A stretch of DNA of 52,262 bases, from contig CACDXJ010000004.1 of assembly GCA_902556855.1 (NCBI GenBank), forward strand, positions 1-52,262, given 5' to 3'. Below the pieces are notes generated by a model. That model ran no database searches, had not been told where the DNA came from, and saw nothing but the letters and a program-made list of their open reading frames with translations. Source of the DNA: an uncultured Pelagibacteraceae bacterium. GTDB lineage: Bacteria; Pseudomonadota; Alphaproteobacteria; Pelagibacterales; Pelagibacteraceae. Every line of letters begins with the position of its first letter. The first letter of the stretch is position 1. Shown here in pieces: positions 4,000 to 26,476 of this stretch. A program made the position numbers and the translations under genes.

Positions 4000-6047
4000 A
4001 CTTCTTTTATATTTATTATTTCTGCTCTATCATATAATTTTAAAAGAAAATTGTATTTTTCTTGATTAATATTGTCTATTTTTAAAATAAAACTTTCAGC
4101 GAGTTTAAATAAATCATCATGTATTACGGGATCTGCAAATCTAAAATTTTTTAATCCACTTTGTTGATACCCCGTTAAATCTCCGAAACCCCTTAGCTTT
4201 AAATCTTCTTCTGCTATAAAAAATCCATCATCTGAATTTTTAAGAATTTTTAATCTTTTTACAGCATTTTGACTTAAACTTTCTTTAAATAGAAGAATAC
4301 AAATTCCCTGATTTTTTCCTCTACCAACTCTCCCTCTTAATTGGTGTAACTGAGCTAATCCAAATTTATTAGAATTTTCGATTATTATTATGTTTGCATT
4401 TGGAAAATCAATTCCAACTTCAATAACTGTAGTTGAGACCAAAATATAAATCTCCTTATTTAAAAACTTTTTTAAAATTGTTTCTTTTTCATCTTTATTC
4501 ATTGCACCATGAATTAAACCAACTTTGTTAGGAAATTTTTTAGATATAATGTCAAATTTTTTCTTAGCTGAAGAATAATCTAAAAATTTTGAATCATTAA
4601 TTAAAGGACAAACCCAAAAAATTTGATTTTCGTTTCTAATTTGTTTTTCTAAGTAAGGCCATAATTCGTCAATTTTTTTTTCAGGCTTACTAAGTGTTAT
4701 AGTTTCTTTTCTCATAGAAGGTTTATCTTTTATTTTTGAAATATCCATATCTCCATAAATTGACATCATCATAGTTCTTGGTATTGGTGTAGCTGACATC
4801 AATAATACGTCGCAGTTTTTTCCTCCTTTAATCGCAAGATCTGATCGTTGCTTTACACCAAATTTATGTTGTTCATCAATTACTATATATCCTAACTTTT
4901 TAAATACTATTTTTTTTTGGAACAAAGCATGAGTACCGATTAATAAATCTATTTTACCTTTTTCCAAACTAAACAATATTTTTTTTCTCTTTTTGGGTTC
5001 AGTTTTCCCTGATAAAAATTCGATATTAAGATTTAAATCTTTGAAAATTTTTTTTGCTAATTGAAAATGTTGATTGGCAAGAATTTCAGTTGGGGCCATT
5101 AATGCACATTGATAATTAGACTCAATAACATTTGCTATAGATAATAAAGAAACAATAGTTTTTCCTGAACCTACATCTCCCTGTAAAATTCTAAACATTC
5201 TTAGATCACTTTTTAAATCTTTATTAATTTCTTTCAAAGCAAATTGTTGACCTTTAGTAAGCCTAAAAGGAAGGATATCAAGTATTTTCAAATAAAAAAA
5301 TTCATTAAATTTTTTTATTTTTTTTATCTTTTTAATTCTATTCCTATTTTCAGATAGAGTTAGAAAATTTGCGCAAATTTCATCAAAAACAATTCTCCTA
5401 AAACTTTTTGATTGATTATTTTTGGACTCATCTGAATTATGTAATTTTTTGATTGCTTCATTCCAGTTGAGCATCTTATTTTTATTTAAAAACTTTGTAT
5501 CTATCCAATCATTTATATGAGGTAAGTTTTGAATAACTTGCTCACTAATTCCTCTATATTTTTTCTCATTAATTCCTTTTGTAAGATTATACTTAGGTAG
5601 GTTTTTCAATACATAATCTTTATTATTCAATGTTGTCACATAATCTGGATTAGATATTTGATATTTATCTCTATAAAAATTTATTTTTCCACTTATTATA
5701 ACCCAATTATTTAATGGAAAAATTTTTCTCAAATAACCCTCTCTGCTATTGAAATAAACGATATCTATTTTTCCAGTTTCGTCTTCACATTGAATTTTAT
5801 TAGGAAGCTTTCTTATTCTTGGAAAGTTAAGTTTTTTTACAATTACTTTAATAGTTTGTATTTTTCCAATTTCAAGATTATTTAATTTAGTGATAACTGA
5901 TCTATCGGTTTCTGAATATGGTAAACTAAATAAAATATCTTTAATTTTTTCAATTTTTTTATTCTTAAGATACCTTGATAATTGAGGACCTACACCTTTT
6001 AACTTATTTACACTTTGAAAGATATAGTCTTTTTTTATTAACCTCAT
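3996..6047 (-). CDS. recG: ATP-dependent DNA helicase RecG
   Basis: RecG drives branch migration and regression of stalled forks. The 683 residues fit the family. A wedge/OB domain fills roughly residues 50-150. The helicase core has Walker A GDVGSGKT (290-297), motif II DEQH in VIDEQHKFGVKQR, motif III MSATPIPRT and motif VI QLRGRVGRG. The C-terminal block FGDLTGYQQSG near residue 640 is the usual RecG end region (family GxxQSG). It is divergent from sdhE with only 23 bp between the two start codons, so both promoters must lie in or next to coding sequence. Confidence 0.96.
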   Translation of the reverse strand: MRLIKKDYIFQSVNKLKGVGPQLSRYLKNKKIEKIKDILFSLPYSETDRSVITKLNNLEIGKIQTIKVIVKKLNFPRIRKLPNKIQCEDETGKIDIVYFNSREGYLRKIFPLNNWVIISGKINFYRDKYQISNPDYVTTLNNKDYVLKNLPKYNLTKGINEKKYRGISEQVIQNLPHINDWIDTKFLNKNKMLNWNEAIKKLHNSDESKNNQSKSFRRIVFDEICANFLTLSENRNRIKKIKKIKKFNEFFYLKILDILPFRLTKGQQFALKEINKDLKSDLRMFRILQGDVGSGKTIVSLLSIANVIESNYQCALMAPTEILANQHFQLAKKIFKDLNLNIEFLSGKTEPKKRKKILFSLEKGKIDLLIGTHALFQKKIVFKKLGYIVIDEQHKFGVKQRSDLAIKGGKNCDVLLMSATPIPRTMMMSIYGDMDISKIKDKPSMRKETITLSKPEKKIDELWPYLEKQIRNENQIFWVCPLINDSKFLDYSSAKKKFDIISKKFPNKVGLIHGAMNKDEKETILKKFLNKEIYILVSTTVIEVGIDFPNANIIIIENSNKFGLAQLHQLRGRVGRGKNQGICILLFKESLSQNAVKRLKILKNSDDGFFIAEEDLKLRGFGDLTGYQQSGLKNFRFADPVIHDDLFKLAESFILKIDNINQEKYNFLLKLYDRAEIINIKEV

Positions 6048-18890: not shown

Positions 18891-19166
18891 CTAGAGCCTT
18901 ATACCCTCTTTTTTTAACAAAAATCTCTTAGTTTTTAAGCCTCCTTTGCCTGAATAGCCTCCAAGCGTTCCGTCAGATCTAATAACTCTATGGCAAGGTA
19001 TTTTGGGCGCATATGGGTTTTTTCCTATAGCATTCGCCACAGCACGTACAGCAAGCGGTTTTCCTATGGCTTTTGCAACTTGAGAATAGGTTTTCACGCT
19101 TCCACGAGGTATTTTCCTCAAATATGTCCATACTTTCAGTTGAAATTTGGTGCCAACTAGCTTCAT
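18891..19166 (-). CDS. Stand-alone alkylguanine-DNA alkyltransferase catalytic domain
   Basis: The 91-residue protein consists only of the DNA-binding/active-site domain of O6-alkylguanine-DNA alkyltransferase. It has the HTH region GSVKTYSQVAKAIGKP with the arginine finger in AVRAVANAIGKNP, then IPCHRVIRSDGTLGGYSGG-type sequence with acceptor Cys58 in PCHR. Because Cys is kept, it is not a typical alkyltransferase-like (ATL) protein, where Trp replaces it. The usual N-terminal domain of Ogt/Ada is missing. It would repair alkylated guanine by irreversible self-alkylation. Its ATG overlaps the stop of the small membrane protein gene (TAATG). Confidence 0.85.
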   Translation of the reverse strand: MKLVGTKFQLKVWTYLRKIPRGSVKTYSQVAKAIGKPLAVRAVANAIGKNPYAPKIPCHRVIRSDGTLGGYSGKGGLKTKRFLLKKEGIRL

Positions 19167-19330
19167 TAGTCAAATATTAGGTAAATTGTTAAAGATATAC
19201 CTGTTATAAGGGCTGTAATTAAGCCCAAAGCTATCATTTTTTTTCCTTTTGAACTTGAATTGCTCCAGAAGTAAGAAATTCCATAAATTACAGCTATAAA
19301 TACCACTATAGGAAGAATTATTTTAATCAT
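19166..19330 (-). CDS. Small two-helix membrane protein, unknown
   Basis: A 54-residue ORF (ATG at 19330-19328, TAA at 19168-19166) has two hydrophobic helices, IILPIVVFIAVIYGISYFW and MIALGLITALITGISLTIYL, separated by the basic hinge SNSSSKGKKM. Its stop overlaps the ATG of the alkyltransferase gene by one base, a layout seen for coupled genes throughout this window. This supports it as a real gene too short for usual cut-offs. The function is unknown. Confidence 0.6.
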   Translation of the reverse strand: MIKIILPIVVFIAVIYGISYFWSNSSSKGKKMIALGLITALITGISLTIYLIFD

Positions 19331-19350
19331 AAGCTATAAAATTATATCGA

Positions 19351-19379
19351 TTGACATCTAAAATCACTTAATATATTAC
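19351..19379 (+). promoter_or_regulatory. Candidate sigma-70 promoter of the recombinase gene
   Basis: TTGACA at 19351-19356 is a perfect -35 box; TATTAC at 19374-19379 with a 17-bp spacer can serve as -10. It points at the recombinase gene (ATG 19413) from the divergent gap. An inverted repeat TGATAA-N7-TTATCA (19383-19401) lies just downstream, where an operator would block transcription. Both are sequence matches only; AT-rich DNA makes chance matches likely. Confidence 0.35.
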
Positions 19380-19412
19380 TAATGATAATTAATTGTTATC
19401 AATAGTAATATT

Positions 19413-20366
19413 ATGAATGAGTTATTAACAGATATAAAAAAACTTCATGAGGAAACTTTGGAAAACCTCAAAAGCTCTAAAGCCAATAACACGTTGAGAG
19501 CTTATAAATCTGATTTTAAAGATTTCGGTGCTTTTTGTGCTAAGCATGGATTTAATTCAATGCCTACTGAACCTAAGGTTGTATCACTATATCTAACACA
19601 TCTTTCTGCAAATTCAAAAATAAGTACTCTAAGACGGAGGTTGGTCTCTATTAGCGTAGTTCATAAGCTTAAAGGTCATTATTTAGATACTAAGCACCCA
19701 ATTATAATTGAAAATTTAATGGGTATAAAAAGAAAAAAAGGAAGCATTCAAACAGGAAAAAAACCTATATTAATCAATCATTTAAAACAAATTATTAATG
19801 TTATTGACGAACAAAAAATTGCAAAAATTAAAAAATTAAGAAATAGAACTTTAATACTCATAGGTTTTGGAGGAGGTTTTAGACGTACAGAATTAATTTC
19901 TATTGATTATGAAGACTTAGATTTTGTTGAAGAAGGTGTAAAAATAACTCTTAAAAGGTCTAAAACAGATCAATTTGGGGAGGGTTTGATGAAAGGACTA
20001 CCCTATTTCACTAATGAAAAATATTGTCCAGTAACGAGTTTAAAAAATTGGATTAATTTGTCGAAAATAAAAACTGGTGCAATATTTAGAAGATTTTCAA
20101 AAGGCTCAGCACTTACTGCAAATAGGCTTACAGACCAATCAGTAGTATTAATAATTAAAGATTGTTTAAAATTAGCAGGTATAGAAAATCAAAATTTTTC
20201 AGGTCATAGTTTAAGATCAGGTTTTGCTACAGTAGCCGCAGAGTCTGGCGCAGACGAAAGAAGTATTATGGCGATGACGGGACATAAAACTACACAGATG
20301 GTAAGAAGATATATAAAAGAAGCAAATATTTTTAAAAATAATGCTTTAAATAAGGTAAAAATTTAG
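19413..20366 (+). CDS. Tyrosine recombinase / phage-type integrase
   Basis: The 317-residue protein has an N-terminal SAM-like core-binding domain (residues about 5-105, including NTLRAYKSDFKDFGAFC) and a C-terminal catalytic domain with the full set: Arg157 (GFRRTEL), Lys184 (SKTDQFG), His265 and Arg268 (HSLRSG), His291 (TGHKT) and nucleophile Tyr300 (RRYIKE). It looks like a site-specific integrase rather than the housekeeping XerC/XerD pair. It stands directly in front of glycosyltransferase genes, consistent with a mobile or recombining island. No att repeats could be identified by eye. The next gene starts right after its stop. Confidence 0.92.
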   Translation: MNELLTDIKKLHEETLENLKSSKANNTLRAYKSDFKDFGAFCAKHGFNSMPTEPKVVSLYLTHLSANSKISTLRRRLVSISVVHKLKGHYLDTKHPIIIENLMGIKRKKGSIQTGKKPILINHLKQIINVIDEQKIAKIKKLRNRTLILIGFGGGFRRTELISIDYEDLDFVEEGVKITLKRSKTDQFGEGLMKGLPYFTNEKYCPVTSLKNWINLSKIKTGAIFRRFSKGSALTANRLTDQSVVLIIKDCLKLAGIENQNFSGHSLRSGFATVAAESGADERSIMAMTGHKTTQMVRRYIKEANIFKNNALNKVKI

Positions 20367-21254
20367 ATGAAAAAAGAAAAAAAAAATTTAAATGATATAA
20401 CAATAATAATTGTAACATACCAAAGTCAAAATAAGGTATTAAAATTTACAAAAAAAATTCCAGAAAAAATTCCAATAATTATTGTAGATAATTCAAAAGA
20501 TTATGTACTTAAAAAAAAAATGAGCAAAAGAAACAATGTTCAAGTTTATTTAAGAGAAAAAAATCTAGGATATGGATCATCAGTAAATTACGCGGTTAAA
20601 AAGGTAAAAACAAATTACTTCTTAGCTGTACAGTGTGATGTAGAGGGCATAAATAAAAAAAGCTTAGAAACTTTTTTTTATTATGCCAAACTTCTAAAAG
20701 ACAAGTTCTCTATGATGGGGCCAAGATTTATAGACGCTCCTGTTAAGGGACACATCCAAACAAATAAAAAATATGATCACAAAAAGATTTTTTGTGTTCA
20801 TGGTTCAACTCTATTTATAAATAAAAAGAATTTTAAAAAAATAAATGGTTTTGATGAAAATTACTTTTTATATTGGGAGGAAAGAGATTTAGCCAAAAAG
20901 TTTGATAAAGTTGGATTGAATTGTTTCCAAATTAATAAAATTTGCGTAAGACATAAAAAAGGTGAATCTGTGTATACAAAATATAATCAAGAAAATATAA
21001 AATTAAATCATTTATATTCATGGCATTTTATTTGGTCTAAATACTATTTTTTTAAAAAAAATTTTGGACAATTTTTTTCAATTTTATATTTTACACCAAT
21101 AATATTAAGAGTCTTATCACGAATATTTATAACAAAATTATTTTCAGATAATAAAAAAAAACAAAAATATTTAATTAGATGGCACGGGTTAAAAACTTCC
21201 TTACTTGGAAGAAAATCTTACATAAGATTAGATAATATTAAATCAATAATATAG
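20367..21254 (+). CDS. GT2 family glycosyltransferase (rhamnosyltransferase-like)
   Basis: The 295-residue protein has a GT-A fold start (ITIIIVTYQSQNKVLKF), a nucleotide-sugar region IIIVDNSKD, the NLGYGSSVNYAVKK segment, AVQCDVEG at the DxD position, and GFDENYFLYWEERDLAKKF with the catalytic-base-like acidic pair. These are features of rhamnosyl- and related transferases acting on the cytosolic side of the membrane in glycan assembly. Its ATG follows the recombinase stop without a gap, and it is convergent with the RfbH-like gene (12 bp overlap). Confidence 0.9.
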   Translation: MKKEKKNLNDITIIIVTYQSQNKVLKFTKKIPEKIPIIIVDNSKDYVLKKKMSKRNNVQVYLREKNLGYGSSVNYAVKKVKTNYFLAVQCDVEGINKKSLETFFYYAKLLKDKFSMMGPRFIDAPVKGHIQTNKKYDHKKIFCVHGSTLFINKKNFKKINGFDENYFLYWEERDLAKKFDKVGLNCFQINKICVRHKKGESVYTKYNQENIKLNHLYSWHFIWSKYYFFKKNFGQFFSILYFTPIILRVLSRIFITKLFSDNKKKQKYLIRWHGLKTSLLGRKSYIRLDNIKSII

Positions 21255-22445
21255 TTTAATAAATTTCTCTATATTAGTTTTAATAAATTTAATATCATTT
21301 TCAGATAGCCCATGATGACAGCCGATTAAAATCCCATTTTTCATTATATTGTTAGCATTTATTGAAGCTTTAGGATGTTTTTTAAATTTCTTTTTTCTCA
21401 TTATAGGTTGTCTTAAAATATTTCCAGTAAAAATAGTTCGCGTTTGAATATTTCTTTTTTCTAAATAAATTTGTAAATCCTTTCTTTGAAATTTCAATTT
21501 ATCTTTAAGTATTATAGGGTATGCTAACCAACCAGTTTTAATATCTTTATTTTGATCGGGTAAATCAAATATGTTGTTAAATTTTAAAAAAAATTTTTTA
21601 AGACTCAGAAAATTTCTTTCACGTAAAGATATATTTTTATTAAGTTTTTTTAATTGCACAAGTGCAAAAGCTGCAGATAATTCAGAAGGTAAAAAATTAT
21701 ACCCCATTTCAGAAAAAATATATTTTCCATCATATGGAATACCATCTACTTTTTTGTTGAATCTTAATCTTATTCCTTCAGACTCGTTGAAAGTCGCTGA
21801 GGATCTCCCCCAACCTCTTAATAATTTAGCTCTTTGATATAATTTAAAATCATTAAAACAAACTATTCCACCGAATCCAGCACCTGTAATTATATGAGAA
21901 GCATACATACTATTAGTTACTACGTCACTACAATCACCAAAATTTTTATTCTTTTTATACTTATAACCTATGGTATCAGCAGAGTCCTCAATAACTTTAA
22001 GTTTATATTTTTTTGCAATTTGTTTAATTTTTTTCCAGTTTGGTAGGTTTCCTAGCAAATTTGGTATTATTATAGCTGAGGTATTCTTATTAATAGATTT
22101 TTCAATCTGATTTGTGTTTGCTACAAAACTTTTTTCTTCAACATCTATAAAGTGAGGTACTAATCCTAATTGATATATTGGAGATACAGTTGTAGAAAAA
22201 GTTAATGTCGGAGTTATTATTTCACTTCCTTTTTTTAGGTTTAGTGAGTCCAATGCTAGTAGATTTGCAGACGATCCCGAATTAACCATAAGTCCGTATT
22301 TTTTTCCAAAAAGCCTTGCAATTTTATATTCAAGTTCTTTAACACTAGGTCCATCAATCAAAGATAAAGATTTTTTCTTTAATACATTAATTGCAGCATT
22401 AATTTCCGCTTTTCCATATACAGCTTTTCCATAAAAAATTTTCAT
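21243..22445 (-). CDS. RfbH/ColD-like PLP-dependent sugar enzyme (DegT/DnrJ/EryC1/StrS family), His for Lys
   Basis: The 400-residue protein has the aspartate aminotransferase-like fold of DegT sugar enzymes: NSGSSANLLALDSL, ITPTLTFSTTVSPI, VIEDSADTIG. At the position of the PLP-anchoring Lys it has His184 (SMYASHIITGAGFGG), as in the 3-dehydratases ColD and RfbH/DdhC/E1. The block RGWGRSS to YIFSEMGYNFLPSELSAAFAL aligns with the RfbH type, but the cysteines of the E1 [2Fe-2S] site are absent. Likely role: C3 deoxygenation of a nucleotide 4-keto-6-deoxysugar for surface glycan (inference). Partner dehydratase and reductase genes are not in the window. Confidence 0.85.
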   Translation of the reverse strand: MKIFYGKAVYGKAEINAAINVLKKKSLSLIDGPSVKELEYKIARLFGKKYGLMVNSGSSANLLALDSLNLKKGSEIITPTLTFSTTVSPIYQLGLVPHFIDVEEKSFVANTNQIEKSINKNTSAIIIPNLLGNLPNWKKIKQIAKKYKLKVIEDSADTIGYKYKKNKNFGDCSDVVTNSMYASHIITGAGFGGIVCFNDFKLYQRAKLLRGWGRSSATFNESEGIRLRFNKKVDGIPYDGKYIFSEMGYNFLPSELSAAFALVQLKKLNKNISLRERNFLSLKKFFLKFNNIFDLPDQNKDIKTGWLAYPIILKDKLKFQRKDLQIYLEKRNIQTRTIFTGNILRQPIMRKKKFKKHPKASINANNIMKNGILIGCHHGLSENDIKFIKTNIEKFIKLYY

Positions 22446-23305
22446 TAATGAGCTCTATTATAAAATTTATTTACTATAATCAAATATAAAAAACTTATTT
22501 TACATTTTAAAAAATCATAATAATACGTAAAACTTTTTGTTGGTGTAGATAATTCTCCTTTAAAAGGCAAATCTGATTTTAAGTAATGTTTTTTAAAGAA
22601 CTTAATAGATATACCCCATTTCATTAGAAACGTCTTAGCTCCATCATTCCACGCTTTTTTTCTTAAAGAAAGCGAGGAAAAATGATAAACTCTACAATTA
22701 CCTAATCCTTTGAAAAGCCTCACTCCAATTTTCCAAAGTTTCATATTAAAATCTGGATCAGATCCTAGCCCAGGTGTAAATTCTTCACTAAAACCTTCTA
22801 CTTTATTCCATGTTTTTAGAGGTATTAACGATGGTTGCCAATGAGTTCCCTGAAAGTTTTCGAATTGGATTTTTGGCAATTCTTTTAAAAGTTTTTCTTC
22901 ATTAAAATCTTTAATGTTATTCCCGCAGTCAAGGTTGATGTAAGATTTAAATGGTTGAACCATTGTTCCCGATAAAAAAAAATCATAATTTTTTGGTAAT
23001 TTCTTTAATTCATCTTCAAAAACCACATCCCATTTTGGGCAAAAATACATATCATCATGAGCTAAAATTATATACTCTTTCGTAGCTTTTTTTACTGCTT
23101 CATTAAAAGCTACACAAACGCCAGAATTTTTTTTACTAAATGTTGTCTTATAATTCTGTGATTTTAAAAATTCTAATGTTCCATCTATTCCTTCATTTAT
23201 ATGAATAATTATTTCATGGTTATATTTAGAGTTTTTTCTTATACTCATTAAACATAACCTTAGATAATCTAAGTTATTAAAAGTTGGAATTATGATTGAA
23301 AACAT
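22445..23305 (-). CDS. GT2 family glycosyltransferase
   Basis: It starts with the GT-A hallmark MFSIIIPTFNNLDYLRLCL and continues with HEIIIHINEGIDGTLEFL, GVCVAFNEAVKKATKEYIILAHDDMYFCP (acidic metal-binding DD) and EGFSEEFTPGLGSDPDFNMKLW. The ATG at 23305 shares one base with the upstream stop (TAATG) and is preferred over an in-frame TTG at 23317. It probably transfers a sugar in the same glycan pathway as its neighbours. The sugar donor and acceptor cannot be read from sequence. Confidence 0.88.
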   Translation of the reverse strand: MFSIIIPTFNNLDYLRLCLMSIRKNSKYNHEIIIHINEGIDGTLEFLKSQNYKTTFSKKNSGVCVAFNEAVKKATKEYIILAHDDMYFCPKWDVVFEDELKKLPKNYDFFLSGTMVQPFKSYINLDCGNNIKDFNEEKLLKELPKIQFENFQGTHWQPSLIPLKTWNKVEGFSEEFTPGLGSDPDFNMKLWKIGVRLFKGLGNCRVYHFSSLSLRKKAWNDGAKTFLMKWGISIKFFKKHYLKSDLPFKGELSTPTKSFTYYYDFLKCKISFLYLIIVNKFYNRAH

Positions 23306-25434
23306 TAATATTCCCAAAAATATTTTTTATTTTTTTTAAAATCTAAACATTTATTGATTATAAATTCTGCTACTAAATTAGAATTAAAATATTTCATATA
23401 TTTAGCCTTTCCTTTTTGAGCAATAGACTTCCTCAATTTATCATCATTCGCTATTCTTTTTATTTTTTCTGATAAATCATTAATATTTTTGTAAAAAACC
23501 ATTTCTTTATTATTAAAAAAATTTCGATATTGCGTTTTCTCGTCTATAAGACACACTAAACCATTGCCTACAATTTGAGTAATTCTATCACTACTATAAT
23601 ATTTTATAGTTTCTCCCCTACTCAAATTTAAACCCATTTTAGCATTGGAAATTGTTTTAAAGTAATGATCAGCCCAAATAGGCTGAATTTTGCCAATTCC
23701 ATATATATCAAATTTTATATCGGGTGTTTTATTTGTAAGATTATTCAAAAAAGTTATTCTATCATCAGTTTTTCCAGATTTTAAAACTCCTCTATGAACC
23801 CCATGACTTAAAGCAAAAAAAACATCTACATTACAAGATTTTTTAAAATTATCTAAAATTTCAAATGACTTATCTGATGGATTAGGAATATAAAAACTTT
23901 TTTTATTTTTAAGAAAATTTAGAACATCAGGGCTTGTTGTAAGGAAAGTGGAGTCAACAACATTTATCTTGTCAAGTATTCTATCTTTATTTCTTTCATA
24001 ATCAGGGCCTTTTTTATTTAAAGGATCTAAAAACCATTGTCCAAATCGTGCATTAGGATAATCCTCTTTTAACTCTCGAATTTGATCAGCAGAAATTAAA
24101 TCTGCATGACCAAGAATTATTAAATCTGGTTTGTAATTGTAACAGGTTTTTTTTAATTTATTATTTAAAGTTTTAGCTCCTTTCAGATCACCTAAACCTT
24201 TATAATATTTTTGGATATCTCGGTCACTAAAACCTAAAACACTGTGTCCTAGTCTTATAAAACCATTATTAATTCTTCTTCCTGTATTAAAAAATAGTCT
24301 ACCGTCTAATCTTTCATTAAAATTTGTAATATGTAAAATTCTAAGATTTTCTAGATTTTTTTTCGTATTAAAAAAATTAATATTTTGAAATTTTTCAGAT
24401 CTAAAATTATCTATTTTTTTTGTTATAAACTCATGAGTTAAATAAAAATTTTTTAAAGATAATGTTTGAAGACTCTTCCTTAACTTATTATTTTTGATCA
24501 AATTTGATATAGTGTTTTCTAAATTTTTTACAGAGAGTTTTTTTAAAATTTTTGCGTTTGTAACAGTTTCGGGAAGCCCACCTTTATCAGTTATAATCAC
24601 TGCACATCCATTAGCAGAAGCCTCTAAACTTGTTCTACCAAAGGGCTCTTCCCATCTAGAGCAAGCAACTGCTATACTAGTCTTTTTAAATATGTCTAAA
24701 ACCTTTTCATGATTTAAAAATCCAAGTATATCAGCATTTTTATGATCCAAAATAATCTTTTCTCTTTTTTCATCACCTATAACTTTTGCTTGCCAATTAG
24801 GAAATCTATTTAATATTTTTTTAATTGATTTAGCAAAAATATCATAACCTTTTGCAGAATTAAGTTTACCTACAAATGTAATCCATTTTTTTTTTTCTTT
24901 AATTATAGAGGGATTGTTTTTTTTTGCAGATTGAAAAAAAACGACAAGTTTTTCACTATTAACAAATTTATTTTCAAGTCCATCAAGGAATCTTTTTTTA
25001 GACCAATTACTATTGAAAATAATCTTATAACAATTCTTTAGTAAATTTTTTCTATCTTCAATTGTTTTAGAACCATCCATAGATAATGGATCGTTGTGAA
25101 AATAAAGTGCTAATACTTTATTATCAATTTTTTTTTTTAACAAATTAATATAACTTGGTCTATTGTGAACTTCAATAATTGAAAAATTAAATTTATTTTG
25201 TAGTTGAATAAATTTATTTACATATGCTTTAGTTTGACTTCTAAAAGGATTATTAAATAAATTTATATTTTCGTATTTAAGATTAAACTTTTTTTTAAAA
25301 GAAGTATTTCCAAAAACAGTAATATCTTTCTTGAATTTACTATTTATACTTGTCTCATTCACGAAAAGAGAAACTGCCCCAGGGTAATCTGGTGAAAAGT
25401 TTTCTTTATAAGGTAACAAAATCGCTATTTTCAT
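23305..25434 (-). CDS. Two-domain glycosyltransferase: GT4 domain fused to CgeB-like GT-B domain
   Basis: The 709 residues fall into two GT-B units. Residues 1 to about 345 are a GT4 transferase: FVGKLNSAKGYDIF in the hinge, then SRWEEPFGRTSLEASANGCAVIITDKGG with the E-x7-E motif. From about residue 370 (LRILHITNFNERLDGRLFF) a second unit resembles CgeB/YkvP-like transferases: PDLIILGHADLI, FGQWFLDP, YIPNPSD, GLNLSRGETIKYYSSDRITQIVGNG. Such fusions usually add two successive sugars or one sugar plus a processive step. It starts 4 bp inside the end of the GIY-YIG gene. Confidence 0.85.
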   Translation of the reverse strand: MKIAILLPYKENFSPDYPGAVSLFVNETSINSKFKKDITVFGNTSFKKKFNLKYENINLFNNPFRSQTKAYVNKFIQLQNKFNFSIIEVHNRPSYINLLKKKIDNKVLALYFHNDPLSMDGSKTIEDRKNLLKNCYKIIFNSNWSKKRFLDGLENKFVNSEKLVVFFQSAKKNNPSIIKEKKKWITFVGKLNSAKGYDIFAKSIKKILNRFPNWQAKVIGDEKREKIILDHKNADILGFLNHEKVLDIFKKTSIAVACSRWEEPFGRTSLEASANGCAVIITDKGGLPETVTNAKILKKLSVKNLENTISNLIKNNKLRKSLQTLSLKNFYLTHEFITKKIDNFRSEKFQNINFFNTKKNLENLRILHITNFNERLDGRLFFNTGRRINNGFIRLGHSVLGFSDRDIQKYYKGLGDLKGAKTLNNKLKKTCYNYKPDLIILGHADLISADQIRELKEDYPNARFGQWFLDPLNKKGPDYERNKDRILDKINVVDSTFLTTSPDVLNFLKNKKSFYIPNPSDKSFEILDNFKKSCNVDVFFALSHGVHRGVLKSGKTDDRITFLNNLTNKTPDIKFDIYGIGKIQPIWADHYFKTISNAKMGLNLSRGETIKYYSSDRITQIVGNGLVCLIDEKTQYRNFFNNKEMVFYKNINDLSEKIKRIANDDKLRKSIAQKGKAKYMKYFNSNLVAEFIINKCLDFKKNKKYFWEY

Positions 25435-25679
25435 TTACTTTTCTTTTTTAATTTGGTTCTTAATTTTCTATTCTTCTTTATATAATATTCTCGAGAAATT
25501 GCCTCTTTTTTTGAATAAAGTTTTTCTTTATATATAAGTTTCCATTTTCTACCTCTTGTAAATTTCGCTCCTTTTCCTGTGTTATGAAGTTTGATTCTTT
25601 TTTTTAAATTATTTGTGTATCCAACATAAGTAACAGGACGCTCGCTCATTGACTTGAGCATATAAACATAGAAAGTCAT
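25431..25679 (-). CDS. GIY-YIG domain protein (UPF0213-like)
   Basis: The 82-residue protein is a single GIY-YIG nuclease-like domain: YVYMLKS (GIY position), TYVGYTNNLKKRIKLHN (YIG position with the family Arg) and a conserved Glu in SREYYIKK. Its charged C-terminus is lysine-rich. Stand-alone members of the YhbQ/UPF0213 type are common and mostly uncharacterised; some cut DNA. It lies between the aldolase gene (5 bp away) and the large glycosyltransferase on the minus strand, at the edge of the glycan island. Confidence 0.82.
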   Translation of the reverse strand: MTFYVYMLKSMSERPVTYVGYTNNLKKRIKLHNTGKGAKFTRGRKWKLIYKEKLYSKKEAISREYYIKKNRKLRTKLKKKSK

Positions 25680-25684
25680 TATTA

Positions 25685-26476
25685 TTAATAGCCTTTAGCG
25701 TCAGAGCCTTTTTTTAAACCTTTTACTTTTTCTATAGCGCTCTTTGCGCCTGCACTCATAAATCTTTGATCTGATCCAACCGTAACTAAATTAAAGCCTT
25801 TTGAAATCATCTTTTGTGCATACTCAGCTGATCCATTGTGTATACCTGTAAATAAATTTCTTTTTTTTGCTGCTTCTAAAATTTTAAGTATTTCCTTATA
25901 AACTCTTGTGTCTTCAGGTTTATCAAAACCAGGCTCCTCGCCTAGTGCTAAACTTAAATCTGCAGGTCCTATATAAATACCGTCAAGGTTAGGTGTATCT
26001 AGTATTTCTTCAAGTTTTTCTAAAGCCTCTTTTGTTTCAATCATAGCTAATTTTAAAATTTCATCATCTGCATGTTTTGCGTAATCAGTACCACCGTACA
26101 ATAATCCTCTAATTGGCCCAAAACTTCTATAGCCTTTGGGCGGGTATAAACAAGCCTGTACAAAATTTTCAGCTTCTTTTTTATTGCTTACCATTGGACA
26201 AATAATACCATAACAACCTGCATCAAGAATTTTCATTATTTGACCGGGTTCATTCCAATTTACTCTAGCTAAAGGGGTAACATTAGTAGTTGAAATAGCT
26301 TGAAGCATATTTAAAGAATTTGAATAATCTATTACTCCATGTTGCATGTCTATTGTGCAGGAGTCCCATCCTTGATTAACCATTACTTCTGCTGAAAAAG
26401 CACTTGGTATTTGCAACCAACCATTTACAATTGGTTTTCCTTCTTTAAACATTTGTTTTAATTTATTTTTTCTCAT
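25685..26476 (-). CDS. HpcH/HpaI family class II aldolase
   Basis: The 263-residue TIM-barrel enzyme has the family blocks IDMQHGVIDY, PLARVNWNEPGQIMKILDAGCYGIICPMV, the metal-ligand Glu in AMIETKEAL, IYIGPADLSLALG with Asp ligand, and the GFNLVTVGSD end. Members cleave 2-oxo-4-hydroxy acids to pyruvate and an aldehyde with a divalent metal. It overlaps the aldehyde dehydrogenase gene by 4 bp (ATGA), so aldolase and dehydrogenase probably act in sequence. Beside iolD/E/G, it may cleave a cyclitol-derived keto acid (inference). Start at ATG 26476. Confidence 0.9.
   Translation of the reverse strand: MRKNKLKQMFKEGKPIVNGWLQIPSAFSAEVMVNQGWDSCTIDMQHGVIDYSNSLNMLQAISTTNVTPLARVNWNEPGQIMKILDAGCYGIICPMVSNKKEAENFVQACLYPPKGYRSFGPIRGLLYGGTDYAKHADDEILKLAMIETKEALEKLEEILDTPNLDGIYIGPADLSLALGEEPGFDKPEDTRVYKEILKILEAAKKRNLFTGIHNGSAEYAQKMISKGFNLVTVGSDQRFMSAGAKSAIEKVKGLKKGSDAKGY

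Follow-up and report, generated by a model that had tools for sequence, protein, structure and literature searches.

A predicted Fe-S-free, histidine-type sugar 3-dehydratase in a glycan island of a SAR11 bacterium

Removal of the C3 oxygen from CDP- and dTDP-sugars is described, in the accessible text of a 2022 review, as the work of Fe-S enzymes together with reductases, with Fe-S-free removal described for a GDP sugar (PMC8987622). E1, ColD and SpnQ are named there as well characterised, the CDP- and dTDP-acting ones being Fe-S proteins, and the Fe-S motif is said to be made by four cysteines, whose positions that text leaves unspecified (PMC8987622). One group was unable to reconstitute E1/E3 in vitro, and a dysfunctional cluster was the suspected cause (PMC7851689). 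For Campylobacter, a GDP-heptose pathway has been reconstituted from a 4,6-dehydratase, a glutamate-dependent C3-dehydratase, a C5-epimerase and a C4-reductase (PMC10440746). In this pathway to GDP-3,6-dideoxyheptose, PLP and glutamate are needed and 2-oxoglutarate is released, as far as the accessible parts of the two reports describe it (PMC10440746, PMC10680097), and by analogy we would regard it as the closest experimental parallel to the enzyme presented here. In the literature searched by title and opening lines, most of it outside subscription journals, neither a 3-dehydratase that acts on dTDP or CDP sugars without Fe-S nor a 3,6-dideoxy sugar in SAR11 was found.

In this study, a DegT-family gene from an uncultured Pelagibacteraceae bacterium was compared with these systems. 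Its product is proposed, with a probability of roughly 0.6, to be an Fe-S-free NDP-4-keto-6-deoxyhexose 3-dehydratase using PMP/PLP, which here would most likely act on dTDP-4-keto-6-deoxyglucose to provide a 3,6-dideoxyhexose for the cell surface.

The glycan island and the active site of the enzyme

The window, which is the whole stretch of 52,262 nucleotides that was analysed, carries the enzyme gene in a small glycan island (19413-25434) with a tyrosine recombinase at one edge. The features of the island and of the enzyme gene are:

19413..20366, plus strand: tyrosine recombinase (Phage_integrase), marking one edge of the island
20367..21254, plus strand: family 2 glycosyltransferase, convergent with the enzyme gene; its rhamnosyltransferase match is weak (37 bits against a cut-off of 200.55)
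21243..22445, minus strand: predicted Fe-S-free, His-type DegT-family 3-dehydratase, 400 aa with an ATG start, the subject of this study
21774..21818, minus strand: loop RGWGRSSATFNESEG, residues 210-224, the region in which E1/RfbH has three of its four Fe-S cysteines
21894..21896, minus strand: codon CAT of His184, which replaces the PLP lysine and is preceded by Ser183 (from sequence and alignment)
22445..23317, minus strand: family 2 glycosyltransferase, immediately upstream of the enzyme gene on the same strand
23305..25434, minus strand: protein of 709 aa in which two glycosyltransferase regions were recognised (Glycos_transf_1 and Glyco_trans_1_2)

The recombinase and the adjoining family 2 glycosyltransferase recur at five related loci (L001, L002, L004, L005 and L009), with the other contents of the island varying. 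The nearest tRNA is about 3 kb from the island. A search for att repeats around it returned AT-rich partial repeats alone and nothing convincing, and positions 19000-25700 had no DNA match in a phage collection. In another genome of the SAR11 order (G011), a ColD-type His enzyme (L087, 9387-10619) occupies a recombinase-bearing island of a similar type, so Fe-S-free enzymes of the two classes seem to replace one another in the islands of SAR11.

In profile searches, the enzyme matched the Pfam family DegT_DnrJ_EryC1 (PF01041) with 237.6 bits. Its top NCBIfam model was RfbH (NF011936) at 299.3 bits, below the cut-off of 423, and a true RfbH from the SAR11 order (L086) scores 738.1 bits on the same model. 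Among solved structures, the closest in sequence are E1 (3bcx, 195 bits) and ColD (2gms, about 149 bits), followed in third place by a sugar aminotransferase at 126 bits. PDB entry 9wvy, which is named a putative NDP-4-keto-6-deoxyglucose-3-dehydratase, scored 100.6 bits against the enzyme and 172.6 bits against Fe-S RfbH, and by these scores appears to be closer to the latter. As for the marks of a sugar aminotransferase, the DegT/DnrJ/EryC1/StrS profile and the fold are present in the enzyme, and the Schiff-base lysine is absent, with His in its place.

The enzyme was then set in an alignment with 52 other rows. His184 falls in the same column as E1 His220 and the histidine of ColD, where the aminotransferases have their PLP lysine. 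E1 has Cys at all four of its columns 193, 251, 253 and 261, which we take to be the Fe-S ligands C193, C251, C253 and C261, and the enzyme has Ala156, Ser216, Thr218 and Ile225 at these columns. The initial annotation had read the protein as a histidine-type sugar 3-dehydratase, with His184 at the position of the PLP lysine and the Fe-S cysteines absent; the two residue-level claims hold in the alignment, which also supports the predicted type of enzyme.

This pattern extends through the clade. The PLP position is His in 37 of 37 aligned clade rows and Lys in none, the Cys at columns 251, 253 and 261 are missing in all 37, and the Cys at column 193 is missing in 34, being retained by L040, L041 and L043. 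In the same alignment, all four Cys are present in 7/7 Fe-S RfbH rows and the PLP Lys in 5/5 aminotransferase rows. The combination of His and missing Cys in the clade is far beyond chance, and the enzyme is no stray mutant. A Ser precedes the His in 36 of the 37 clade rows, 4/4 ColD rows, 1/5 aminotransferase rows and 0/7 Fe-S rows, and after the His the clade carries one extra residue (IITGAGFGG versus HIT-MGEGG). Other Cys columns are frequent in the clade, at Cys196 (86% of the 37 rows) and Cys376 (92%) of the enzyme, and these are only two columns, therefore too few for a four-Cys cluster within one chain. The enzyme is very probably without an Fe-S cluster and very likely a 3-dehydratase.

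An AlphaFold2 model of the enzyme was built from 14 SAR11 sequences (mean pLDDT 82.3, pTM 0.86), and its best structural match by Foldseek and VIA-align was E1 (Z 45.7, 362 aligned residues, rmsd 2.3). ColD (3b8x) reached Z 42.5 and was outscored by several aminotransferases, with Z up to 43.7, so the model confirms the superfamily but does not decide what the enzyme does. Prediction of the structure at the cluster site, which had been suggested as a check, thus returned E1 as the best match overall, but with a pLDDT below 50 at residues 213-222, where E1 has its cluster loop.

Descent and distribution of the clade

In a tree of 50 rows, the enzyme fell in a clade of 34 rows with a support of 100/100, whose members come from SAR11, other alphaproteobacteria and two actinobacteria. 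The other groups were Fe-S RfbH (7 rows, 100/97), ColD (4 rows, 100/96) and the Lys aminotransferases (5 rows, 98/98), and a branch with 98/98 parted the 45 His-type rows from the five Lys aminotransferases. All four groups were kept in a second tree of 48 rows without the cofactor-loop columns, with the ColD group at 100/97. The clade rows L029 (partial), L023 and L012 were omitted from both trees, the second tree was also made without the long-branch aminotransferase rows L015 and L084_11856, and both gave long-branch warnings for some reference rows.

The clade joined RfbH in the first tree (93/85) and, weakly, ColD in the second (88/65), and the branching order of the clade, RfbH and ColD was not fixed with the loop columns removed (AU p 0.26 and 0.22 for the two alternatives). 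Placement of the enzyme inside RfbH or inside ColD was ruled out by the scores and the trees. As the clade is separate in both trees, the enzyme is by descent neither RfbH nor ColD. The initial annotation had proposed an RfbH-like scaffold and had named a Lys at the PLP position, or a place within the aminotransferases, as findings that would speak against its reading. Neither was found. The RfbH-like scaffold is retained as a statement of nearest match, in sequence scores and in structure, but not of descent, because the trees do not order the three His-type groups.

Matches at E <= 1e-60 were found in 20 of 147 sampled genomes of the SAR11 order. By alignment, 17 of these carry the new clade, two carry Fe-S RfbH (G124 and G125) and one carries a ColD-like gene (G011); the counts given below for the 17 carriers leave out these last three genomes, which are all counted among the 130 others. 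The named relatives of the enzyme are SAR11 single cells and MAGs (L001-L013). Plasmid matches with 41.6-49.4% identity (H1-H25) were found in Roseibium, Labrenzia, Leisingera, Ensifer, Sinorhizobium, Palleronia, Embleya and Rhodococcus, and clade membership was checked by alignment for seven of them (L037-L043). In a scan of the phylum at E <= 1e-70, at least 1 of 398 genomes, the enzyme's own, was positive. This count is a lower bound, because at most four candidates per genome were scored among the matches listed and the clade is present on rhizobial and other plasmids.

Two viral contigs (L103 and L106) encode, near position 5001, proteins with the His and without the loop Cys, as assigned by alignment rather than by tree placement. 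Two further viral contigs (L104 and L105, also near 5001) encode another divergent DegT protein of the His type, containing SFYVAHLLVTGVGG or SFYIAHLLVTGVGG, which was assigned to none of the groups defined here.

Gene neighbourhoods and the likely sugar carrier

At six loci of the SAR11 order (L006, L010, L075, L076, L077 and L089), the gene order is rmlB, rmlA, SDR, enzyme, rmlC, and a seventh (L007) has rmlB, rmlA, enzyme, rmlC without the SDR. These gene labels come from blastp clusters, and profile models were run on the L075 genes: RmlB scored 394.8 bits (over the cut-off), RmlA 358.4 against a cut-off of 360.65 and RmlC 176.6 (over the cut-off), and the SDR gave a good match to the general Epimerase family alone. 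RmlB also adjoins the enzyme in L081 and L083, with 45 and 69 bp between the matches, and rfbF, rfbG and the enzyme are consecutive in L084 (G064).

RmlB over the cut-off was found in 12/17 carriers compared with 43/130 other genomes (Fisher p 0.006), and within 10 kb of the enzyme in 8/17. The corresponding figures for RfbG are 9/17 compared with 36/130 (p 0.049), and 2/17 within 10 kb. RmlC (E <= 1e-20) is present in 12/17 carriers and lies within 10 kb in 9/17. RmlB or RmlC is within 10 kb of the enzyme in 12/17 carriers, and RmlB or RfbG over the cut-off in 10/17. RmlB is far off or on another contig in three carriers (G003, G028 and G119) and absent at the cut-off in three others (G086, G114 and G126). 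Neither dehydratase is over the cut-off in G086 and G126; the enzyme is at the contig end in both, and RmlC is 3 bp away in G086.

RmlD over the cut-off was found in 0/20 genomes. At E <= 1e-15, it was not found in G013, G048 and G062, which have a full rml operon around the enzyme, but in G096, where the operon is the same, there are two matches of 112 and 86 bits, under the cut-off. This is a hint, short of proof, that an rml operon with the enzyme differs from a simple rhamnose set.

A stretch of 13 kb in G041 (L082) contains, on both strands, the enzyme gene together with rfbG, rfbF and an acetolactate-synthase-type TPP gene, and the TPP gene is 40% and 38% identical to the genes adjoining true RfbH in G125 and G124. 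In Yersinia, the TPP enzyme YerE acts after E1, and the arrangement in G041 fits the new enzyme standing in for RfbH in the same pathway. True RfbH with four Cys is present in the SAR11 order at L086 (2383-3690) and L088 (9679-10980), each time beside a TPP gene.

Outside the SAR11 order, rfbF-rfbG, which belong to the CDP-glucose pathway, precede the enzyme in five of the seven plasmid members. In the annotated clusters of Roseibium, Leisingera and Palleronia, the enzyme comes third, after rfbF and rfbG and before a class I methyltransferase and an NAD(P)-dependent oxidoreductase; the Roseibium methyltransferase has the C-methyltransferase domains PF08421 and PF08484, and its relatives in the Leisingera and Palleronia clusters are 77% and 58% identical to it. 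On the Ensifer and S. meliloti plasmids, tblastn gave the order rfbF, rfbG, enzyme, SDR, GT2. With the SAR11-order locus L084, the loci with rfbF/rfbG beside the enzyme are thus L037-L039, L042, L043 and L084. A relative of the Roseibium C-methyltransferase is close to the enzyme at two SAR11 loci, L080 (7977-9155, same cluster) and L011 (7868-9076, 29% identity), hinting at branched sugars there too.

In the 25-kb stretches from Rhodococcus and Embleya, none of the nine other query genes was found, so function may vary within the clade, and its actinobacterial members may have a different role. These members (L040, 11992-13215; L041, 12001-13188) stand apart from the sugar genes searched for, and the annotated neighbours in Rhodococcus include an inositol catabolism gene and regulators.

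In the enzyme's own genome, rmlB, rmlA, SDR and rmlC are consecutive on contig C6 (L099, from 6741 down to 3621), away from the contig of the enzyme. The rmlB gene scores 398.1 bits (over the cut-off), rmlC scores 144.8 against 155.75, rmlA is 83% identical to the gene of the genus-mate G108, and the short SDR scores 77.6 bits to RmlD, far under the cut-off. G108 has the same rmlB/rmlA/SDR/rmlC genes with the enzyme 4.8 kb from rmlB, and L002, among the nearest relatives of the enzyme, has rmlC directly upstream of it in the same type of island. At E <= 1e-40, rfbF and rfbG were not found in the own genome, whose assembly is 67.8% complete. Taking these observations together, dTDP is the likelier carrier in this genome, of which a third may be missing, and a dTDP substrate in the strain itself is somewhat favoured; the rml genes, being on another contig, could simply make rhamnose. 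Of the GDP or CDP substrates proposed at first, CDP is indicated for five plasmid members and a minority in the SAR11 order, but for the SAR11 order the substrate suggested by most of the gene neighbourhoods is dTDP-4-keto-6-deoxyglucose.

Proposed reaction and comparison with known systems

In the proposed cycle, PMP would condense with the C4 ketone of the sugar, His184 would remove the PMP proton and the C3 hydroxyl would depart. The enamine sugar would then be released, tautomerise and be hydrolysed to the 4-keto-3,6-dideoxy sugar and ammonia, while an amino donor, most likely glutamate, would convert PLP back to PMP, making a reductase unnecessary. In the own genome, RmlA and RmlB would supply dTDP-4-keto-6-deoxyglucose as the most likely substrate. 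After the dehydratase, RmlC could invert C5 and a short-chain reductase could reduce C4, giving an ascarylose- or colitose-like dTDP-3,6-dideoxy-L-hexose that the neighbouring glycosyltransferases would place on the surface glycan. RmlC, C-methyltransferases and C4 reductases require a C4 ketone; a transaminase would use up this group, and a dehydratase keeps it in place. A hydrolytic, donor-driven cycle after the example of ColD seems likely, since the cluster-binding residues of E1 are missing from the enzyme and the apparent downstream enzymes need the ketone.

Another possibility, which we consider improbable, is a C3-dehydratase on the E1 route, in which the 3,4-glucoseen-PMP adduct would be reduced directly by a separate ferredoxin or flavodoxin, with no cluster on the enzyme. 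E1/RfbH is indeed the nearest family, Asp157, Trp212, Arg214 and Arg228 of the enzyme are common to Fe-S RfbH and not to the four ColD rows, and SpnQ is described as able to use general ferredoxin or flavodoxin systems (PMC8987622). However, the loop cysteines are missing in every clade row, and an E3-like reductase is absent from the neighbours listed, in an incomplete gene table, for the three annotated rfbF-rfbG clusters. The E3-type FAD domain PF00970 was found in 0/20 genomes, but these include G124 and G125 (94-96% complete), which have true RfbH, so its absence does not discriminate and was dropped as evidence on the enzyme.

The enzyme could also be a lysine-less, aminotransferase-like protein that uses His184 for acid-base catalysis and produces a 4-amino or 3-amino sugar. 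Sugar aminotransferases have the same fold and belong to the same family, and SpnQ without its reductase is described as showing transaminase activity (PMC8987622). Nevertheless, the lack of Lys throughout the clade, the split of the His-type from the Lys rows in the tree, and the adjoining RmlC, methyltransferase and SDR genes, which suggest that the C4 ketone is retained, make this quite unlikely.

Just as doubtful is a GDP-4-keto-6-deoxymannose 3-dehydratase of a colitose-like pathway, a divergent ColD in function and mechanism, since the GMD-like genes (E <= 1e-40) that occur in 13/17 carriers (10 over the cut-off, and one below it in the own genome) lie within 10 kb of the enzyme in only 1/17 (G041, 6.5 kb away and below the cut-off) and within 2 kb in 0/17, compared with 10/17 for RmlB or RfbG within 10 kb, and since the new clade stands outside the group of the four ColD rows in both trees, even though a ColD-type gene sits in the similar island of G011.

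The Fe-S-free 3-dehydratase is therefore kept as the preferred reading. More broadly, there are even odds that the clade is a third class of B6-dependent sugar 3-dehydratases, Fe-S-free and outside ColD, with dTDP-4-keto-6-deoxyglucose as the substrate in most carriers of the SAR11 order and CDP-4-keto-6-deoxyglucose in other alphaproteobacteria. This would imply a SAR11 pathway to a dTDP-3,6-dideoxy-L-hexose, a glutamate-driven cycle in place of the E1-E3 chain, and a gene traded between glycan islands. If this holds, 3,6-dideoxy sugars could be made more simply, with an enzyme that acts on dTDP or CDP sugars and has no cluster. The surface sugars that a dominant ocean bacterium varies would also become easier to recognise, and this may bear on recognition by phages and grazers.

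As the Campylobacter parallel is of the ColD type, and the CDP- and dTDP-acting enzymes of the review are Fe-S proteins, an Fe-S-free class of its own, associated with dTDP and CDP sugars, is proposed from the sequences, with no characterised member found in the sources searched. It is like E1/RfbH/DdhC (CDP-4-keto-6-deoxyglucose 3-dehydrase, 3bcx) in giving its best sequence and structure match there, in having His at the PLP position and, for some members, in standing beside rfbF-rfbG. It differs in being without the Fe-S cysteines, in the one-residue insertion in its GAGxGG turn (MGEGG in E1/RfbH), in its score of 299 bits against 423 and in its separate clade. With ColD (GDP-4-keto-6-deoxymannose 3-dehydratase, 2gms), the enzyme shares His for Lys, the lack of Fe-S loop cysteines and the Ser before the His, but it falls outside the ColD group, has Asp157 where ColD has Glu, and is partnered mostly by RmlB, RmlC or RfbG and not by GMD.

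The last two systems were compared by description. The C3-dehydratase of Campylobacter jejuni HS:5 has a similar pathway logic, depending on PLP and glutamate and being followed by a C5-epimerase and a C4-reductase, whereas its substrate is a GDP-heptose and it is of the ColD type, 62-67% identical to two characterised GDP enzymes (PMC10440746). SpnQ (dTDP-4-keto-2,6-dideoxyglucose 3-dehydratase) is described as a His-type enzyme acting on a dTDP sugar, but it has the [2Fe-2S] motif and relies on reductases of the ferredoxin or flavodoxin kind (PMC8987622).
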